Below are positions 29,916 to 39,241 of a stretch of 64,000 nt of DNA, piece after piece. The DNA is taken from the NCBI RefSeq assembly GCF_000020785.1, contig NC_011126.1:310001-374000 (forward strand), in the 5' to 3' direction. This stretch comes from Hydrogenobaculum sp. Y04AAS1. Its GTDB lineage: Bacteria > Aquificota > Aquificia > Aquificales > Aquificaceae. The notes below the pieces were generated by a model. It was not told the origin of the DNA. It ran no database searches and saw only the letters and a program-made list of their open reading frames with translations. How positions within the stretch are numbered: the first letter of the stretch is position 1; the number at the start of each line of letters is the position of its first letter. Both the position numbers and the translations under genes were made by a program.

Positions 29916-30574
29916 ATACCGAATCCACCCAATAGTATTCTATAAGCAATAGCTATAAAAGGATATATAATTTTACCTATTACACCAGTAAAAATAAGTA
30001 CGGTAAGTATCAAAAACCCGTAAGGTTCAAACTTATAAAACTCTTCCCAATACTTTACAGAAAAGAAACTCATAACAATACGGCTTCCATCCAAAGGAGG
30101 TATAGGCAAAAGATTAAAAAACGCCAACACTAAGTTTATTATAACAAGCTCTCTAGAAAACCACAAAAGAGGTTCTACAACGCTTGCGAAAAAAAATGGA
30201 TTTATATCAGATGCTATAGTACTTTCTAAAAGCCTAAAAGAAACAGCACCTAAGATTGCCATCGCTATATTTGCTAAAGCACCTGCTGATGATACAATAA
30301 GCATACCCATTCTTAAGTTTCTAAATCTGTATGGGTTTATAGGTACTGGTTTTGCCCAACCAAAAAGTATAGGAGAACCCACGAGCATCAAAATCCCAGG
30401 CAATATGATAGTGCCAAGCAAATCTATATGAGGAATTGGGTTTATTGTCAGCCTTCCGGCTTCCTTGGCGCTTTTATCTCCCATCCAATAGGCCGCTGCC
30501 CCATGAGCTATTTCATGAAATATAACAGCCATCATTAAAGCCGGTATAGTAATTACTATTTGTTCAAAGTTCAT
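29912..30574 (-). CDS. Site-2-type membrane zinc protease (M50)
   Basis: 220 residues, about five membrane helices. Zinc motif HEIAHGAAAYWMG near the N-terminus and second metal motif NLLPIPPLDGSRIV. No PDZ or CBS domain, so it belongs to the small M50B group of intramembrane proteases. An internal TATAAT six bases before its ATG gives it a possible own promoter inside the operon. Confidence 0.9.
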   Translation of the reverse strand: MNFEQIVITIPALMMAVIFHEIAHGAAAYWMGDKSAKEAGRLTINPIPHIDLLGTIILPGILMLVGSPILFGWAKPVPINPYRFRNLRMGMLIVSSAGALANIAMAILGAVSFRLLESTIASDINPFFFASVVEPLLWFSRELVIINLVLAFFNLLPIPPLDGSRIVMSFFSVKYWEEFYKFEPYGFLILTVLIFTGVIGKIIYPFIAIAYRILLGGFGI

Positions 30575-31287
30575 TATTTTATTATATCAGATTGTTTATA
30601 TATAATGCGCTGACAGTTAGGACACATGAAGCTAGGTATGTTATTTTGAATTAGCCTGTTGTAAAAGTCTATTGGCAATATAGTTCCACAGTAAGAGCAG
30701 GCTTTGTTATCTATTGGTACAAAAACAGGTTTTACCCTTTTTTTGATATCTTCATAAAAATCTATAAGGCTTTTCTCTAAAGTATCTTTGTGATCTTTTA
30801 TATCTTTTTCCGCTTTGAGTATAGATTGTTCTATGTTTTCTAAATCTTCTTTTAAATTTCTTATCTCTTCTTGTAAGCGTTTTTGTTTTAAAAGTAAATC
30901 TTTTAATTCGTTTGAGTTTTCTATATTGCTAAGTTGTATATATGCTTGTTTTAACCTATTTTTTGTATTTATAATAGCGTTTTCTGTTTTTGATTTTTCT
31001 CTCAACACATTTTTATACAGCTCTTTGCTTTTGATGGTTCTTAGGGATTCTGTTATCTTTTTGAGATTTTTTTCGTGTTTTTCTATGGTTTTTAGTAGTT
31101 CTTCTATTAGTTTTTTAGTATTTTCTTTTTCTTGGTGTATGTTTTCTATCGCTTTTAATACGTTGTTTAGCTCTTGTTCAAAGTGTTGTATTTCCCTTAA
31201 GATTTTTTCTTTTTCTTTTAAAAGCCTAAAAGATCTTTCTTCTTTTTCCTGTAATAAAATAAGACTCTTTAAACTATCTTTATCCAT
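30574..31287 (-). CDS. Coiled-coil zinc-ribbon protein (COG1579-like)
   Basis: 237 residues. Residues ~10-185 are an unbroken charged coiled coil; residues ~195-230 form a zinc ribbon with CSYCGTILP and MCPNCQRIIY. This layout matches the widespread COG1579/CT398-like family, whose role is unclear (nucleic acid or secretion-related in various proposals). Head of the operon running to the AI-2E permease. Confidence 0.82.
   Translation of the reverse strand: MDKDSLKSLILLQEKEERSFRLLKEKEKILREIQHFEQELNNVLKAIENIHQEKENTKKLIEELLKTIEKHEKNLKKITESLRTIKSKELYKNVLREKSKTENAIINTKNRLKQAYIQLSNIENSNELKDLLLKQKRLQEEIRNLKEDLENIEQSILKAEKDIKDHKDTLEKSLIDFYEDIKKRVKPVFVPIDNKACSYCGTILPIDFYNRLIQNNIPSFMCPNCQRIIYKQSDIIK
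30581..30586 (-). promoter_or_regulatory. Internal -10 box before the M50 protease gene
   Basis: Perfect TATAAT on the minus strand within the last codons of the zinc-ribbon gene, six bases before the ATG at 30574. Confidence 0.45.
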
Positions 31288-31317
31288 AGGTGTAATCTAA
31301 TATTATATCAGATAAGG

Positions 31318-32337
31318 TTATTCAAATACACCTTCTATTTTATAACCGCAAAAACTACATTTTCCTTTTTCTAATTTTAGGCTTTTAATAACAAATCTAT
31401 CTCTTTCTATAACTATGTTGTTGCAATTTGGACATACAGTATGTTCGTGCTCTGATTTTATGTTGCCAGTATATACATAGTATATACCCTCTTCTTTTCC
31501 AATCTCATATGCAGTTTTTATCATGGACTCTGGCGTAGGATGTAAGTCTAGGGCTTTGTAATACGGGAAAAACCTTGATATATGCCAGGGTATATGAGGA
31601 CCCAGCTCTTTGCTTATAAATTTAGCTATTAACCTTAGTTGTTCTTCGTCAAGGTATTTTGGCACCAAAAGAGTGGTAAGCTCAATCCATTTTTCGTGCT
31701 TTAAACACAGTTTTATGAAGTTTAAAATAGGTTCAAGTTTTCCTTTGGAATATTTTGAATAGGCTTTTTCTGAGAAAAACTTTAAATCTATACTAAAAGC
31801 ATCTATAACATCCATAAGCTTTAGAGCAGGCTTTTCTGTGATGTATCCGGCGGTTACCATGATGTTTTTCAAGCCTTTTTCTTTAGCCAACTTTGCTATA
31901 TCAAACATGTACTCATAAAATATAATAGGGTCAGAGTATGAGTAAGATATACTCTTAGAGCCTGTTTCTATCGCCCTTTGTACTATTTGTTCTGGAGATA
32001 TATAGGAATTTTCAAAAAAAGCTTTGTTTGAATCATCTATTTTTACTTGAGATATTTCATAATTTTGACAACCAAGACAATGTAGATTGCATCCTGGCGT
32101 TGCTATCGTTAGGGTTTTGTGACCTGGTAAAAAATGAAACAACGGTTTTTTCTCAACAGGATCTAACGCTATAGATACCAAAGATCCATATGTAGCGCTT
32201 AAAAGCTTACCGCCTTTGTTCAATCTAACACCGCATACGCCTACTTGGCCTTCTTTTAATTTACAATAATCAGGACAAAGCTCACATATTACTCTACCAT
32301 CTTCTGTGGTTTTCCAATATGAAGCTTCTATAAACAT
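31318..32337 (-). CDS. AmmeMemoRadiSam-system radical SAM enzyme
   Basis: 339 residues. N-terminal cysteine-rich segment CELCPDYCKLKEGQVGVCGV, radical-SAM cluster TPGCNLHCLGCQNYEIS (CxxxCxxC), and a C-terminal zinc-ribbon pair CPNCNN...CSFCGYKIEG. This matches the radical SAM member of the AMMECR1-Memo-radical SAM set, related to pyruvate-formate-lyase activases. Its partners are not in the window. Reaction unknown. Monocistronic; a TAAATT sits six bases before the ATG. Confidence 0.88.
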   Translation of the reverse strand: MFIEASYWKTTEDGRVICELCPDYCKLKEGQVGVCGVRLNKGGKLLSATYGSLVSIALDPVEKKPLFHFLPGHKTLTIATPGCNLHCLGCQNYEISQVKIDDSNKAFFENSYISPEQIVQRAIETGSKSISYSYSDPIIFYEYMFDIAKLAKEKGLKNIMVTAGYITEKPALKLMDVIDAFSIDLKFFSEKAYSKYSKGKLEPILNFIKLCLKHEKWIELTTLLVPKYLDEEQLRLIAKFISKELGPHIPWHISRFFPYYKALDLHPTPESMIKTAYEIGKEEGIYYVYTGNIKSEHEHTVCPNCNNIVIERDRFVIKSLKLEKGKCSFCGYKIEGVFE

Positions 32338-32386
32338 TTTTATAATTTACAGTATTTTTTACATTTTATCAATGATAATTGTATGT

Positions 32387-32770
32387 TTACTCTAAAACGT
32401 GCTTAGGAGTAACAACACAAAGAAAAACACCTTCAAAAACTTTTATATCGTTAACGTTTACAAAAGCCTCCACAGTATATTTATGGTTATCTATTTTTTG
32501 GATTTTGGCATGCGAGGTCATAACATCTCCCAATTTTACTGGTTTTAAAAATTTAACCTCTGCCTTTGCAAGTACAACGTTTGGATGGTTTACCGCAAGC
32601 ATAGATGTATAATCTGCTAACCCAAATATAAACCCACCGTGTATAAGCCCTTTTTCATCTGCTACCATGTTTTCTTTGGCTTCTAAGCTCACTACAGCGT
32701 AGCCTTCTCCAAGCTCAATAGGGGTGCCACAAAGACCTTGATTAATCTTTAAATGTGTGTTAATCATCAT
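32387..32770 (-). CDS. Hotdog-fold thioesterase (PaaI-like)
   Basis: 127 residues. [25 protein letters not shown] is the active-site helix of hotdog thioesterases, with the conserved H-G-G. Hydrolyses some acyl-CoA. Starts in an ATGATGA overlap with the chemoreceptor stop, so it is the third gene of the ODP-chemoreceptor operon, though functionally its place there is unexplained. Confidence 0.82.
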
Positions 32771-33615
32771 TTTATTAATTTATCTAAGTTGTCCTGGGAT
32801 TGTATGATATTGCTAAATATAGTATATATTTTGGATATACTATCTTTTAATTGTTCTACCGATTGTAAAATCGTGCTCGATACAGCGCTTTGCTCTTCTA
32901 AAGCATTGGCTATTGAGCTCATCAACGCTTTTGTGCTCTCTGCATAGTCTATATTTTGTGCTGATGCATTTTTTATATCTTCGAAATACTCTACTAAATT
33001 CTTAAATATGTTTTCTAAATTGTATATCTTGTTGGATAGCTCTATTATAGCGTTTTTCAACATCATTGTCGTAGAGTTTATATCTTTTGAAAAATCTTCT
33101 GTTTTTTTAGCTAGCTTTCTTACTTCATCTGCTACTACGGAAAATCCTCTACCAGCTTCTCCAGCACGTGCCGCCTCTATGGATGCATTTAACGCTAATA
33201 TAGTAGTTTGTTCTGCTATAGAATTTATATTTCTTGTAACTTTTACTATCTGCTCAGAGAATTTTGCTAGGTTTTCTGCTTCTTTTGCTAAGTTTTTAAC
33301 ATCTTTTGTATAAGATATAGCATTTTTTTGTTTTGTATCTATTTCTTCTTTTAAAGACATGGATTTATCTACCAACAACTCCATGGAAAATGTTACATCG
33401 TTGGCATTTTGGCTCATGCTTTGTATAGTTTGGCTTAGTTCTTCTATAGCGTTTTTAATACCTATTGATTTTTCTTTGCTGTCTTTTACGCGTTCTTCTA
33501 CAATTTTTTTTGTATTTTTTACAAAAGATTCCATTAATATGTTTTTGTAAATCTTTTTAGAGAGGTTGTTTACGGTCTTTCTTAAAGCTTTGTTTTTATC
33601 AAAGACGATGTTCAT
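32767..33615 (-). CDS. Soluble methyl-accepting chemotaxis protein
   Basis: 282 residues from the ATG at 33615, preceded by GGAGGG. No membrane helix or ligand domain: an N-terminal ~50-residue helix is followed by the MCP signalling hairpin. The tip [20 protein letters not shown], then [19 protein letters not shown], is nearly canonical. Eleven bases downstream of an oxygen-binding-diiron-type gene. In Treponema denticola a cytoplasmic receptor and such a protein act together as an O2/Fe sensor, so a shared task is likely here. No cheA or cheW lies in the window; cheB is at 36405. Confidence 0.88.
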
Positions 33616-33626
33616 AATACCCTCCG

Positions 33627-34406
33627 TCAATATATCTCGTTTATTATATCGAGTCCACATCTTAAGGATGAAAGCCAGTCTAAAAATTTGTTGGCATCTT
33701 CTTTTTTAAATATAGACCCATGTTGAGGTGCTATCATATCTATATCTCTTTTCTTTACCTCGCTAACCCATTTTCTGCAAGCTACGTTTCCATTCATATA
33801 ACGTTTGTGAAATCCTTCCATGAGTGGAATGTGTTTTTGAAAATCTTCTACAAATACTTTTCTCCCACCCCTTGGAAATACCGCTGCTCCTATATCACCG
33901 CTAAAAAGTATCTTTGATCTTCTATCGTAAACAGTAAAGTTTCCTACGCTGTGAAGATAGTGAGCTGGTATAAACTCTAAAATATCTCCAGTTGGTAGAG
34001 TGTAAGTCATACCTCTATCTGGTATACCTTTTATTCTTCTTATATCTGTAACACCAAAATGAGGCACAAATCTCGTCCATAGGTTTGATATGTATACTTC
34101 TGCTGGTGTATTGGCAAGCCATAGAGCTATACCAGAAGATACATCGGGATCTTGGTGAGAGTAAAATATCATCTGTATATCGTTTATGTCTATATAGGTT
34201 GATGTGTTTGCTATAACTCTTGGAAATACGTACACACCCCCTGGATCCAGCAAAAATCCTTTTCCTCTATTTATTATAATGTATTGATTTACCTGAACAA
34301 ACCCTTCTTCTTCCTCTTCTTCCCATCCAAGCCATATAAACTTGTGGTCTCCGTCATCATACAAAACTGCCCCATCCACTATAGATACATTCTCATTTGT
34401 AAGCAT
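33627..34406 (-). CDS. Metallo-beta-lactamase-fold diiron protein, ODP-like
   Basis: 259 residues: the diiron lactamase domain of flavodiiron proteins without a flavodoxin domain. Metal ligands are visible as H84, D86 and D88 in [10 protein letters not shown] (HxExD in most flavodiiron enzymes), H149 and/or H152 in [11 protein letters not shown]171 in FSGDIG and H229 in APQHGS. The acidic run E29-E34 is unusual. This fits the oxygen-binding diiron protein (ODP) group that senses O2 for chemotaxis. Strong AGGAGG ribosome site; first gene of ODP-chemoreceptor-thioesterase. A catalytic NO/O2 reductase using a separate flavodoxin is the alternative. Confidence 0.82.
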
Positions 34407-34469
34407 TTTTACCTCCTAAAATGTATAATTTTTATTTATTGTAATATATCAGAAGACAAAAATCAATGA

Positions 34470-34489
34470 TTAATTATCGGTTAATTATC
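34470..34489. repeat. Direct repeat upstream of the ODP operon
   Basis: TTAATTATC occurs at 34470-34478 and 34481-34489, 11 bases apart, about 65 bases upstream of the ODP ATG. One-turn spacing suits a regulator dimer, but the sequence is AT-rich and may be chance. Confidence 0.3.
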
Positions 34490-35179
34490 AAATTCAATCA
34501 TATATTTTCTAAAGTACTTTGGAGCGTAGTGATTTTGCAACCTTGCGTTGGACCTTTCTCTTATTGCAACCGCTTCAAAAAATGTCTTCCATAGTTTTTG
34601 GTATGTATCTTTTTCTATATTTATCTCTTTGCCAAAAGCTTCTATACTAAGATGTTTTTTGTGGTAAACAGCTGCTTTTTTCCTTTTTACGTCGTGTATT
34701 ACAAAGTTCTCCTCTTTATATCTTCTTTTGAAAAACTCTCCTAAGTAATCTAATACAAAGTGCTTTGGCTCAAACTTTGCGTATAAAATATTATCTACCT
34801 GATGAAACCTTAAAAAACCTATGTATTTGTGCCTTTCTCTATTTACCGATTTTCTATAATAAATGAGATTTCTTATAAAATCTTGATTTACATCCTTTAG
34901 GTGCTTATGCTCTAAGTAGAATAAAAAACTCCTGTATATATCAGAAAACGCTTTTTCTTCATCAAAACAAAAACAATCGTAAAAGAGTTCTATCGTCTCT
35001 TCGTCTAATATTTGTTTGAATTTTTTTAGTATATCGTCTTCTATTTCTACTTTTACAATTTTAAAAAGAGATGGTTTTTCGGCTTTTAAGAATATAGGAT
35101 TTTTTATATCGTTTTTAAAAGCCCAATACAAGGCACTTAAAAAACCTTCAAAACTATCTTCGAATATTATATTTACCAT
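34481..35179 (-). CDS. Probable DNA-metabolism protein linked to radical SAM (TIGR03915/DUF4130-like)
   Basis: 232 residues, basic, no membrane helix. Segments GFLRFHQVDNILYAKFEPKHFVLDYLGEFFKRR and, near the end, LWKTFFEAVAIRERSNARLQ with HYAPKYFRKYMIEF match the family that always sits next to a radical SAM protein of TIGR03916 type. The ending 'RxNpxLQxxhmPkRYWxxlxE' is its hallmark. Biochemical role not known; a link to uracil-DNA glycosylase has been proposed from neighbourhoods. Overlaps the radical SAM gene by 7 bases. Confidence 0.85.
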   Translation of the reverse strand: MVNIIFEDSFEGFLSALYWAFKNDIKNPIFLKAEKPSLFKIVKVEIEDDILKKFKQILDEETIELFYDCFCFDEEKAFSDIYRSFLFYLEHKHLKDVNQDFIRNLIYYRKSVNRERHKYIGFLRFHQVDNILYAKFEPKHFVLDYLGEFFKRRYKEENFVIHDVKRKKAAVYHKKHLSIEAFGKEINIEKDTYQKLWKTFFEAVAIRERSNARLQNHYAPKYFRKYMIEFDN

Positions 35180-36366
35180 AACCTTAGCTGAGTGTAAGAA
35201 GGTTTTGGGGAACTTTCTTTTATGATGGCTTTTCTTATATAATCTGGAGATAAACTATAACCTAAGTATTTTTTTGCTACTATAAAGTGCTTTGCCTTTT
35301 TAATAGATATTCCAAGCTTTATAAGGTCCATATATTCTAAGGTTTTGAATGCTCTTGCTTGTATTATTTTCATGGCATTTTTTCTACCGATGCCAGGCAC
35401 TCTTATGAGCTCTTCGTAAGAGGCCTTGTTTACATCTATTGGGTATAGATGTATATTTTTAATGGCGTAAGCGGTTTTTGGGTCTAGCTCTAAGTCTAAG
35501 TTTGAATCTTTTTCAACAATCTCTTCATACTTAAAATCGTAAAATCTAAGAAGCCAATCAGCCTGGTAAAGTCTATGTTCTCTTAAAAGAGGTGTTTTAT
35601 CTACTTTTATATGTTTTGTGTTTGGAATAGGTATATATGCTGAGTAATACATTCTTTTTAGTATCTTCTTTTCATAAAAATAAGAGGCAAGCCTTAAAAT
35701 TTGATAATCTGGCTCGTTGGTAGCTCCCACTATAAGCTGTGTTGAAGTGCTTGCTACTGGCTTTTCGCTGTTATCTCTTAGATTTTTTACAAACATCAGA
35801 GGTTTTAAGACATTGTCTTTGTTTTTTTCTGGTGCTAAAAGCTTTAAACTCTTTTCTGTAGGAAGCTCTATATTTGAGCTAACCCTATCGGCTAGTTTAG
35901 AAGCTTCTTCTATGAGCTCTTTGGAAGCTCCTGGGATTAGTTTTAGATGTATATATCCGTTAAATTTATATTCTTCTCTTAAAATTTTTACGGTTTTTAA
36001 CATGAGTTCCATTGTATGATCTGGGGATTTTGCTATACCAGAGCTTAAAAATAAGCCTTCTATATAGTTTCTTTTGTAAAAGTTTATAGTGATATCTGCT
36101 AGTTCTCTTGGTGTAAAAGAAGCTCTTTTTATATTGTTGGACGCTCTATTTATACAATATTCGCAGTCAAATATACATACGTTTGTAAAAAGCACCTTTA
36201 GAAGGGAGACGCATCTGCCATCGGATGTAAACGTATGGCATACTCCTGGAGCGTAGGAGTTTCCTATACCACCTTCTATAGTTTCTCTAACTCCTCCAGA
36301 GCTTGCACAAGATACGTCGTATTTAGCACCATCAGCTAAGATTTTGAGTTTTTCTTTAACATCCAT
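35173..36366 (-). CDS. Radical SAM protein, putative DNA modification/repair (TIGR03916-like)
   Basis: 397 residues. Early G-G-V-R-E-T-I-E-G-G-I-G segment, radical-SAM cluster CIFDCEYCINRASN, a SAM-radical barrel to about 300, and a C-terminal helix-hairpin-helix LIRVPGIGRKNAMKIIQAR for DNA contact. The order radical SAM plus HhH and the downstream partner identify the TIGR03916 family. Reaction undescribed as far as I know. TATATT six bases before the ATG marks a leaderless operon head. Confidence 0.87.
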   Translation of the reverse strand: MDVKEKLKILADGAKYDVSCASSGGVRETIEGGIGNSYAPGVCHTFTSDGRCVSLLKVLFTNVCIFDCEYCINRASNNIKRASFTPRELADITINFYKRNYIEGLFLSSGIAKSPDHTMELMLKTVKILREEYKFNGYIHLKLIPGASKELIEEASKLADRVSSNIELPTEKSLKLLAPEKNKDNVLKPLMFVKNLRDNSEKPVASTSTQLIVGATNEPDYQILRLASYFYEKKILKRMYYSAYIPIPNTKHIKVDKTPLLREHRLYQADWLLRFYDFKYEEIVEKDSNLDLELDPKTAYAIKNIHLYPIDVNKASYEELIRVPGIGRKNAMKIIQARAFKTLEYMDLIKLGISIKKAKHFIVAKKYLGYSLSPDYIRKAIIKESSPKPSYTQLRLW

Positions 36367-36372
36367 ACTTAT

Positions 36373-36378
36373 AATATA
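36373..36378 (-). promoter_or_regulatory. -10 box of radical SAM/partner operon (leaderless)
   Basis: TATATT on the minus strand, six bases before the ATG at 36366. Confidence 0.5.
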
Positions 36379-36404
36379 TTTTGTTGTATATGCTTTTAAA
36401 ATGA

Positions 36405-37463
36405 TTATTGTTTTGCTATTTTAAGAAGAAAATTTGGAATCTCATCTTTTTTAAGCACAAAATCTACACAACCGGTTTTTATCGCATTTTCTGGCATAGC
36501 CCATAGTATAGCTGTTTTTGGATCTTCCGCTACCGTGATACCGCCATTTTTCTTAACATCTACTATACCCCTAGATCCGTCGTCGCCCATGCCGGTCATT
36601 ACTATACCGCAGGTGTTTTCCTTAAAAACCTTGGCACAAGAAGACAAAAGTGAATTGGCAGATGGTATATATATTATAGAATCATCTTTTACGTAGTTTA
36701 CTATAGGCATACTATCGTTTCCAGTGATTTTCATATTTATCCTACCCCTTGATATATATACGGTGCCTGGTTTTAATACTTCATTTTCTTCTGCTTCTTT
36801 AACGTTTAGTTTACACTTTGAATTTAGATGCTCTGCGAAACTTTTTGTAAACGTATCAGGCATATGTATTGCTATAGTTATCGGATAAGGATAGTCTGAA
36901 GGCAATTTTGGCAATATTTCCCCAAGTGTTTGTGGGCCGCCTGTAGATATACCTATTGCTACCACACCTTTGCTTCCCAATTTTCTTATAGGTGGACTTG
37001 GTATCTGGGGCGGCGGTGTTTCTATCTTTTTTTCTTCTTTTAGAGCTTTCAACTTATCTGCTATGCTTTTTTTCTTTAAAATTGCATTTTCTATTTTTCT
37101 TAAAAGCTCATCTTTTACCTTGTAAAAATCTGCGTAATTTTTTGGCTTTGCTATAAAATCTAAAGCTCCAAGTTCTAGAGCTTTTATAGTTTCCTTCGCT
37201 CCTTGGGTAGTGTAAGCGCTTACCATTATTATTTGAGTTGATATATTTTCTTTTTTTATTCTTTCTAAGGTTTCCAAACCGTTCATTTTTGGCATTTCTA
37301 CATCTAAAGTCACAAGGTCTATGTTTTGATTTTTTAAAATCTCTAAAGCTTCTATGCCATTACTAGCTTCATAGATGTTTTCTACAAGATTTGAAGACTC
37401 CAATATTTTCCTTATCGCCGCCCTTATAAAAAACGAATCGTCTACTATAAGTATGTTTGCCAT
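36405..37463 (-). CDS. cheB: Chemoreceptor glutamate methylesterase CheB
   Basis: 352 residues from the ATG at 37463, with GAGGTG 8 bases upstream. Receiver domain (ILIVDDSFFIRAAIRK, phospho-Asp in DLVTLDVEMPKMNGLE, K in FIAKPKNY), proline-rich linker TPPPQIPSPPIRK, then the esterase domain: catalytic serine in GISTGGPQTL, histidine in AIHMPDTFTKSFAEHL and aspartate in MTGMGDDGSRGI. Removes methyl groups from chemoreceptors. Placed at the end of an lptC-lptA-uppP operon rather than with other che genes; the soluble chemoreceptor at 32767 is the nearest client. Confidence 0.94.
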   Translation of the reverse strand: MANILIVDDSFFIRAAIRKILESSNLVENIYEASNGIEALEILKNQNIDLVTLDVEMPKMNGLETLERIKKENISTQIIMVSAYTTQGAKETIKALELGALDFIAKPKNYADFYKVKDELLRKIENAILKKKSIADKLKALKEEKKIETPPPQIPSPPIRKLGSKGVVAIGISTGGPQTLGEILPKLPSDYPYPITIAIHMPDTFTKSFAEHLNSKCKLNVKEAEENEVLKPGTVYISRGRINMKITGNDSMPIVNYVKDDSIIYIPSANSLLSSCAKVFKENTCGIVMTGMGDDGSRGIVDVKKNGGITVAEDPKTAILWAMPENAIKTGCVDFVLKKDEIPNFLLKIAKQ

Positions 37464-37468
37464 ATCAA

Positions 37469-38239
37469 TCACCTCAAAAGATAAGCTAAATAAGCTAATC
37501 CAGTAATTATTCTATAATATCCAAAAATTTTAAGATTGTTGAAAGATATGAAGTTTAAGAAAGTTTTTACAGAAACAATTGCAAAAATAAGGGCTGTTAT
37601 AAAGCTAATACTCATTGGTAATATATCTTGGTGATGAATTTGGCTATGGTCTTTAAGAAGTGAATAGAAACCAGCGCTAAGTATCGTTGGTATTGCTATT
37701 AGAAAAGAAAAATCAGCGGCGGTTTTTCTCTCAAAGCCTATAAGCATAGCGCCTATGATGGTAGCTCCAGAACGAGAAACACCAGGGATCAAGGCAAGAG
37801 CTTGAATAAAACCTACGGTTATTGCATCTTTTATGGTAACATCTTTTAAACTTGCGATTTTTGGCTTTTTGGATAAAGATTCTACTATTATGATAATAAC
37901 ACCACCAATAAATACCATGCTTGCGGTAATGAGTGGATTACCAAGAAGATAGTGTTTGATTGGTTTGTAAAATAAAAATCCTATGGCACCTGTTGGCACG
38001 AATCCAGCTATTATCTTAAGCCATATTTCTTTATCTATTATAAGCCTTTTTGAATAAAGTATTATTACTGCTATTACTGCTCCTATTTGCATAAATATTT
38101 CATATATTTTAAAGGCAGGGTTTTCTGTGTTTATACCAAGAAGCTTTCCCACCAGTGTAAGATGGCCAGCCGCCGATACTGGTAAAAATTCCAAAGCCCC
38201 TTCTACTATGCCAAGTATAATAGCGTGTATGATGGTCAA
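37469..38239 (-). CDS. uppP: Undecaprenyl-diphosphatase
   Basis: 256 residues, about seven to eight membrane helices. EGALEFLPVSAAGHL and PGVSRSGATIIGAML are the two BacA/UppP motifs, though the first has 'ALEFLPVSAAGH' in place of the usual 'GLTEFLPISSTGH'. Recycles the lipid carrier for cell-wall and LPS synthesis. 4-base overlap with lptA. Confidence 0.93.
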   Translation of the reverse strand: MTIIHAIILGIVEGALEFLPVSAAGHLTLVGKLLGINTENPAFKIYEIFMQIGAVIAVIILYSKRLIIDKEIWLKIIAGFVPTGAIGFLFYKPIKHYLLGNPLITASMVFIGGVIIIIVESLSKKPKIASLKDVTIKDAITVGFIQALALIPGVSRSGATIIGAMLIGFERKTAADFSFLIAIPTILSAGFYSLLKDHSQIHHQDILPMSISFITALIFAIVSVKTFLNFISFNNLKIFGYYRIITGLAYLAYLLR

Positions 38240-38748
38240 GGTTTTGCTCCTTTGCCGTTTGGTATAAATATAGATTGTACTCTTTTGCCAGTTACTATAG
38301 CTTTATCCAATTTTTTATAATATATAACTCTATCTCCTTGTACTACATCGCCTTTGTTTTCCAAGTAAGCATTACCAGTTACTATAATCTCATCTTGGAG
38401 AGCGTCGTATTCTATAACATCGCCTTTTATAAGCTTGTTAGGTTCAGTATAAACAGGGTTTCCTGTGGCTATTATTTTTTCTATTTTTTTGTTTTTGTCT
38501 AAAAATATTTTTAACTCTTGGCAAGTTAGTTTTCCATTGCCCCTTGTGGCCACTACGTTGCCGGTGTATGTGATTACATTGTTGTTGTAATCCATTTTGT
38601 TTGCTTCTATATATATAGGTTTGTTGTTGTTTGACGTATTTTTTACTGGTGTATTTTGTGTTGGTTTTTCTACTTTACTAAAAGCCAAAAACGACAACGT
38701 CAAACTTGATATCACAAAAACTACTTTTTTATTTACTTTATTTTTCAT
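38236..38748 (-). CDS. lptA: LPS-transport periplasmic protein LptA-like
   Basis: 170 residues. Signal peptide (KKVVFVISSLTLSFLAFS) and an OstA-like beta-jellyroll: IYIEANKMDYNNNVITYTGNVVATRGN is the typical LptA opening. Bridges lipopolysaccharide across the periplasm. Overlaps lptC by 11 bases. Confidence 0.9.
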   Translation of the reverse strand: MKNKVNKKVVFVISSLTLSFLAFSKVEKPTQNTPVKNTSNNNKPIYIEANKMDYNNNVITYTGNVVATRGNGKLTCQELKIFLDKNKKIEKIIATGNPVYTEPNKLIKGDVIEYDALQDEIIVTGNAYLENKGDVVQGDRVIYYKKLDKAIVTGKRVQSIFIPNGKGAKP

Positions 38749-39241
38749 AGCTTTTAATATTATAAACTACAATATGAAGAGATGGCTTTAGATTTATATC
38801 AAAAGATTTCCCGTAGGAGCTAAATTTACCTTCTGAAATTATTATATCATCGTTGGCCCAAAAGTGTGAATTTCTCAAATCTATGTTTGTATATTGGGTA
38901 TATATTTTGTCTTGGGCAGTTTTATCAGATTTTGAAAATACTACATCTTTTTTTAAATATCCAACGCCAGATGTTTTGTTTATAACACCTTCTTTTGCCG
39001 TAATTGTATAAGGATAGTTTGTAGCTTTTATGTTCTTTAACGTTATATTTTGTCCTTTTATTATCAATATATCGCCCTCAACATTCCATTGATCGTGGTC
39101 ATTTGAGTATATGTGAATGTCTATTTTTTTTAACACCTGTGGAGAATTTATAAAATGATTGTTTGTATGTTCTTTTTCGTATATAAAAAAAGCCCCTATA
39201 CTTAAAAATAAAACAACAATTAAAGATATTATAAGTTGCAC
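38738..39241 (-). CDS. lptC: LPS-export protein LptC-like
   Basis: 167 residues from a GTG at 39241. One N-terminal membrane helix, then a periplasmic beta domain (WNVEGDILIIKGQNITLKNI). Weakly conserved; the call rests on topology and the overlap with lptA. Head of lptC-lptA-uppP-cheB. TATAAT lies exactly six bases before the GTG. Confidence 0.82.
   Translation of the reverse strand: MQLIISLIVVLFLSIGAFFIYEKEHTNNHFINSPQVLKKIDIHIYSNDHDQWNVEGDILIIKGQNITLKNIKATNYPYTITAKEGVINKTSGVGYLKKDVVFSKSDKTAQDKIYTQYTNIDLRNSHFWANDDIIISEGKFSSYGKSFDINLKPSLHIVVYNIKSYEK

Follow-up and report, generated by a model that had tools for sequence, protein, structure and literature searches.

Structures of oxygen-binding diiron proteins (ODPs) have been solved from Treponema denticola and Thermotoga maritima, and the two proteins share 55% sequence identity. 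The T. maritima ODP (PDB 6qrq and 6qwo) is presumably paired with the soluble receptor Tm14 (PDB 3g67). In T. denticola the ODP TDE2498 is paired with the receptor TDE2496 (PDB 6qnm and 6r9n). This ODP is a chemotaxis oxygen sensor, and its partner chemoreceptor (MCP), which contains neither transmembrane nor sensing modules, modulates CheA (PMC7666581). Operons of ODP and MCP genes, in two orders, as well as fusions, have already been described (PMC7319448). A comparable case is DcrH, in which a hemerythrin domain is fused to a membrane MCP (PMC13401364); it also uses non-heme diiron O2 sensing for taxis, but belongs to a different protein family. The ODP goes unmentioned in a recent aerotaxis review.

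The pair of genes described here lies in a window of 64,000 nucleotides (the whole stretch of DNA that was analysed) from Hydrogenobaculum sp. Y04AAS1. The sequence-only reading had tentatively assigned this DNA to the Aquificales, which agrees with the nearest relative among the named records, Hydrogenobaculum sp. KMB_Bin01 (93%). The odp gene (33627..34406, minus strand) runs from an ATG at 34406 to a stop ending at 33627, and a ribosome-binding site AGGAGG read from the sequence (34412..34417, minus strand) stands five bases before the ATG. Its product of 259 aa is a stand-alone metallo-beta-lactamase-fold domain, which matched the Pfam family PF19583 with an E-value of 1.8e-76 (256.8 bits; curated cut-off 27.2). 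A phmmer search against the PDB gave 343 bits to both 6qnm and 6qrq, and the protein is 57% identical to each of the solved ODPs. The AlphaFold model (pLDDT 90.6) superposed on the T. maritima 6qwo with a TM-score of 0.93, and on the T. denticola 6qnm with 0.88. Moreover, the protein clustered in one clade with both solved sensors (support 100/98). Family match, sequence, tree position and predicted fold thus all identify the gene as an odp, and the likeness to the T. denticola sensor that had been proposed holds.

Comparison with the solved ODPs showed that all six presumed metal ligands (H84, D86, D88, H152, D171 and H229) are conserved and the same in 6qnm and 6qrq. The motif HQDPD in place of HxExD, which had been pointed out, is present at His84-Asp88; however, the other 49 aligned ODPs, including members without any tie to chemotaxis, all have the HxDxD ligand set without variation, and so the motif was rejected as a distinguishing mark. 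To judge from its 57% identity to the T. denticola ODP, the Hydrogenobaculum ODP would also bind Fe and O2.

The MCP gene (32767..33615, minus strand) is located downstream of odp after a gap of 11 bases (33616-33626), as in the arrangement that had been read from the sequence. The gap contains a second ribosome-binding site, GGAGGG (33620..33625, minus strand; from sequence), so both genes carry the ribosome sites ascribed to them. The start served by this site is the ATG at 33615, which gives a protein of 282 aa; a longer open reading frame of 297 aa would begin inside odp. In T. denticola the locus tags of the two genes are two apart (2498 and 2496). Scans for promoters and terminators gave sites no more numerous than in shuffled sequences, and an RNA family search of 30000-39000 of the window found none.

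The MCP consists of a coiled-coil hairpin only; a sensor domain, a HAMP domain and a membrane segment are all absent. Its sole Pfam domain is MCPsignal (PF00015, E = 4.7e-33), and the predicted structure is all helix (pLDDT 89.9). The maximal hydropathy over 19 residues is 0.65, whereas the values are 2.0-3.0 in six membrane receptors examined from the same genome; the protein is thus membrane-free, as had been claimed. It resembles TDE2496 in having no transmembrane or sensing modules, and it also resembles Tm14, a PDB match without membrane segment, whose solved chain in 3g67 is 213 aa in length. The kinase-contacting hairpin tip comprises the residues 147-168 (33112..33177, minus strand), and the columns E147, A148, A149, G152, G155, G157, F158, A162, E164 and L168 are invariant among 15 ODP-linked MCPs. 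Two Glu-Glu pairs, one on each helix (residues 58-59 and 240-241), are roughly equidistant from the tip at about residue 152 and are plausible candidate methylation sites. With ODP-linked MCPs from outside the genus, the MCP shares only 24-38% identity, and the sequences have also diverged between T. denticola and this thermophilic Aquificota bacterium; this low identity weakens the case for a conserved contact surface and is a point against the reading preferred below.

The linkage was compared over eighty named loci and 136 Aquificota genomes. A soluble MCP is the next gene in 22 of the 24 full-length ODP relatives with at least 59% identity and readable downstream sequence. These downstream MCPs have 277-292 aa, and their hosts are Aquificaceae, Thermodesulfobacterium hveragerdense and a Treponema. 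No adjoining MCP was found for the 71 more distant ODPs (40-49% identity) from outside Aquificota. Canonical CheA is encoded in all 15 Aquificaceae genomes with the pair vs 17 of the 49 others (Fisher p = 7e-6, uncorrected for kinship); since the genomes are related, neither the linkage counts nor the CheA counts are independent. In the draft assemblies G019, G032 and G033, contig ends hide the neighbours. Given the E-values of the two proteins and the recurrence of the pair across three phyla, chance is excluded.

Some arrangements bring the ODP closer to other chemotaxis genes. For example, cheB is directly upstream of the adjacent ODP-MCP pair in four genomes (G058-G061). In another genome of the genus (G031), an ODP fragment at a contig start, 83% identical over 151 aa, adjoins cheW in the che operon; it is likely the ortholog of the ODP described here. 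Further members of the chemotaxis ODP clade occur in G031 and in a close relative, G030, without an adjoining MCP, which counts against the reading preferred below.

The family includes several other groups. A small separate ODP-MCP group from other Aquificota families falls outside the main chemotaxis clade in the tree, and has overlapping genes and shorter MCPs of 243-246 aa (L152:3891-5575 and L153:4562-6048). A separate clade of ODP-like proteins, about 40-51% identical, is widespread in most Aquificota and many Proteobacteria (L144, L145 and L146). These proteins share PF19583 and HxDxD with the ODP here; however, they have no MCP neighbour and are also found in genomes without CheA or FliG. 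Other Aquificota encode ODP-GGDEF fusions of about 550 aa (L138:5069-6712, L139:3991-5667, L140, L141, L142 and L143), which are likely oxygen-sensing diguanylate cyclases. Behind one ODP of G031 lies the gene for a CZB-domain protein of 664 aa (L137:2436-5396, minus strand); a Pfam search of this protein gave no MCP signalling domain. In the Hydrogenobaculum genome itself, a second ODP gene and its neighbour survive as remnants (4226-4648 of L095; genome 470225-470647, minus strand). This second locus is intact in G030, where it encodes an ODP, a 226-aa protein without assigned function and a dynamin-like GTPase of 558 aa; the present genome lacks about 2.8 kb of it.

The genome (one contig, 1,559,514 bases) was searched for chemotaxis and flagellar genes, as the sequence-only reading had proposed, and the absence of any CheA, which would have spoken against it, was not found. 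The genome encodes one canonical CheA, and also CheW, CheV, CheY, CheZ, CheR, CheB and the flagellar FliG. The che operon comprises CheA, CheZ, CheY, a CZB-type receptor, a tip-only mini-receptor and CheV; the genome has a further CheW, and contains nine MCP matches. The mini-receptor, between the CZB receptor and CheV, is a 121-aa protein consisting of the MCP hairpin tip only (7078-7443 of L096; genome 172077-172442, plus strand). Over residues 26-120, its counterparts in G032 and G033 share 99% identity with it; for the CheA of these two genomes the value is 83-85%. The cheB gene (36405..37472, minus strand), a receptor methylesterase with a receiver domain (PF01339, E = 7.4e-57, and PF00072), indeed lies nearby, upstream of odp and 2.0 kb from its start. 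A DNA-repair-type gene (TIGR03915) and a radical-SAM gene are located between the two, all on the same strand.

The complete, single-contig genome of G030 has lost the pair. A deletion of about 1.6 kb, corresponding to 32822-34418 of the window, removed exactly odp and the MCP gene; the flanks are about 95% identical, and the last MCP codons alone remain. The che operon is also lost; of CheA, a remnant of some 107 residues is left between guaB and birA. Most of cheB is gone, leaving a truncated CheB, and FliG is kept. This joint loss of the pair and the che genes could reflect a general decay of motility control. G030 has kept one ODP of the chemotaxis clade without CheA, which indicates that ODPs of this clade are not always tied to chemotaxis.

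The pair belongs to the already described family, and the module type is known from T. denticola and Thermotoga; since ODP-MCP operons are already in the literature, this case is a further member of a known system. Very probably, the two genes encode a split oxygen/iron chemoreceptor which signals through CheA to flagellar switching. The ODP would first take up two Fe(II) and would then bind O2 in the form of a stable peroxo adduct, and its metal/O2 state would be passed to the soluble MCP by protein-protein contact. The MCP, which has no sensor of its own, would join the CheA/CheW/CheV array by its hairpin tip and alter the phosphorylation of CheA, and thereby of CheY, to switch the flagella. 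The cell would in this way position itself in a gradient of oxygen (or Fe(II)). Adaptation would likely proceed via CheR and CheB, as the Glu-Glu pairs on the two helices suggest. By analogy with the T. denticola system, the ODP and the MCP would be in direct contact and act on CheA.

It is unlikely that iron is what the ODP mainly senses, or that the ODP acts through CheA on a non-flagellar target such as pili or gene expression. To judge from its title, the T. denticola work of Muok et al. 2019 (cited in PMC10653840) concerns Fe(II) as well as O2, and members of the ODP family serve several different outputs, including the GGDEF fusions and the locus with the dynamin-like GTPase neighbour. 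However, the single canonical CheA is encoded with CheY and CheZ, and flagellar FliG is present in the genome; moreover, G030 still has FliG, but both CheA and the pair are gone.

A flavodiiron-type O2/NO reductase, fed by a separate flavodoxin or rubredoxin and with the MCP as an incidental neighbour, is highly improbable. The flavodiiron proteins (such as T. maritima TM0755, PDB 1vme) also have the metallo-beta-lactamase fold and the same ligand positions; the ODP model gave a TM-score of about 0.76 against flavodiiron cores, and there is a weak phmmer match of about 28 bits (27.7) to the T. maritima protein. The identity is only 18-19%, however, and the score is far below the 343 bits to the ODPs, so the closer flavodiiron similarity that would have argued against a sensor is not seen. 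The flavodoxin domain of the flavodiiron proteins, or any second domain, was not found by Pfam in the 259 aa of the ODP, as had been claimed, and the Glu of HxExD is replaced by Asp. In addition, the adjoining MCP is kept over three phyla. The identity as a flavodiiron reductase was rejected in view of domain content, motif and score.

The next gene encodes a hotdog thioesterase (32387..32770, minus strand; PF03061, E = 9.5e-8), whose start overlaps the MCP stop by 4 bases (ATGA). The sequence-only reading had described it as attached to the pair. The adjacency itself is confirmed, and also occurs in G031 (where the MCP ortholog is 62% identical), G032 and G033, that is, in four genomes of the genus including this one (G000). 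Outside the genus the thioesterase was not found beside an ODP-MCP pair; for five relatives of the thioesterase in other genera the surroundings were fetched and readable, and there neither an ODP nor an MCP gene adjoins it, and the neighbours are unrelated. A joint function of the three genes, with the thioesterase changing an acyl-CoA signal, is scarcely credible: the ATGA overlap suggests translational coupling, but 43 of the 64 Aquificaceae genomes encode relatives of the thioesterase, many of them without this ODP type or neighbourhood, and G030 retains the gene after the deletion of the pair. Its wider distribution and its survival indicate that the thioesterase is probably a co-transcribed passenger and not a third part of the system.

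Hydrogenobaculum, a thermophilic, hydrogen-using chemolithotroph and microaerophile, respires oxygen, unlike T. denticola. It is conceivable, if doubtful, that the pair serves an aerotaxis whose sign might be opposite to that in anaerobes, and that the array mixes full receptors, ODP-driven soluble receptors and tip-only receptors. The known split oxygen sensor is hereby extended to an oxygen-using thermophile. The joint deletion of the pair and the che genes, the likely ODP ortholog beside cheW, and the cheB directly before the ODP-MCP genes are natural experiments, which give genetic support that the chemotaxis ODP clade works for CheA, whereas the sister group of ODP-like proteins, whose hosts include bacteria that have no CheA, would have another role.
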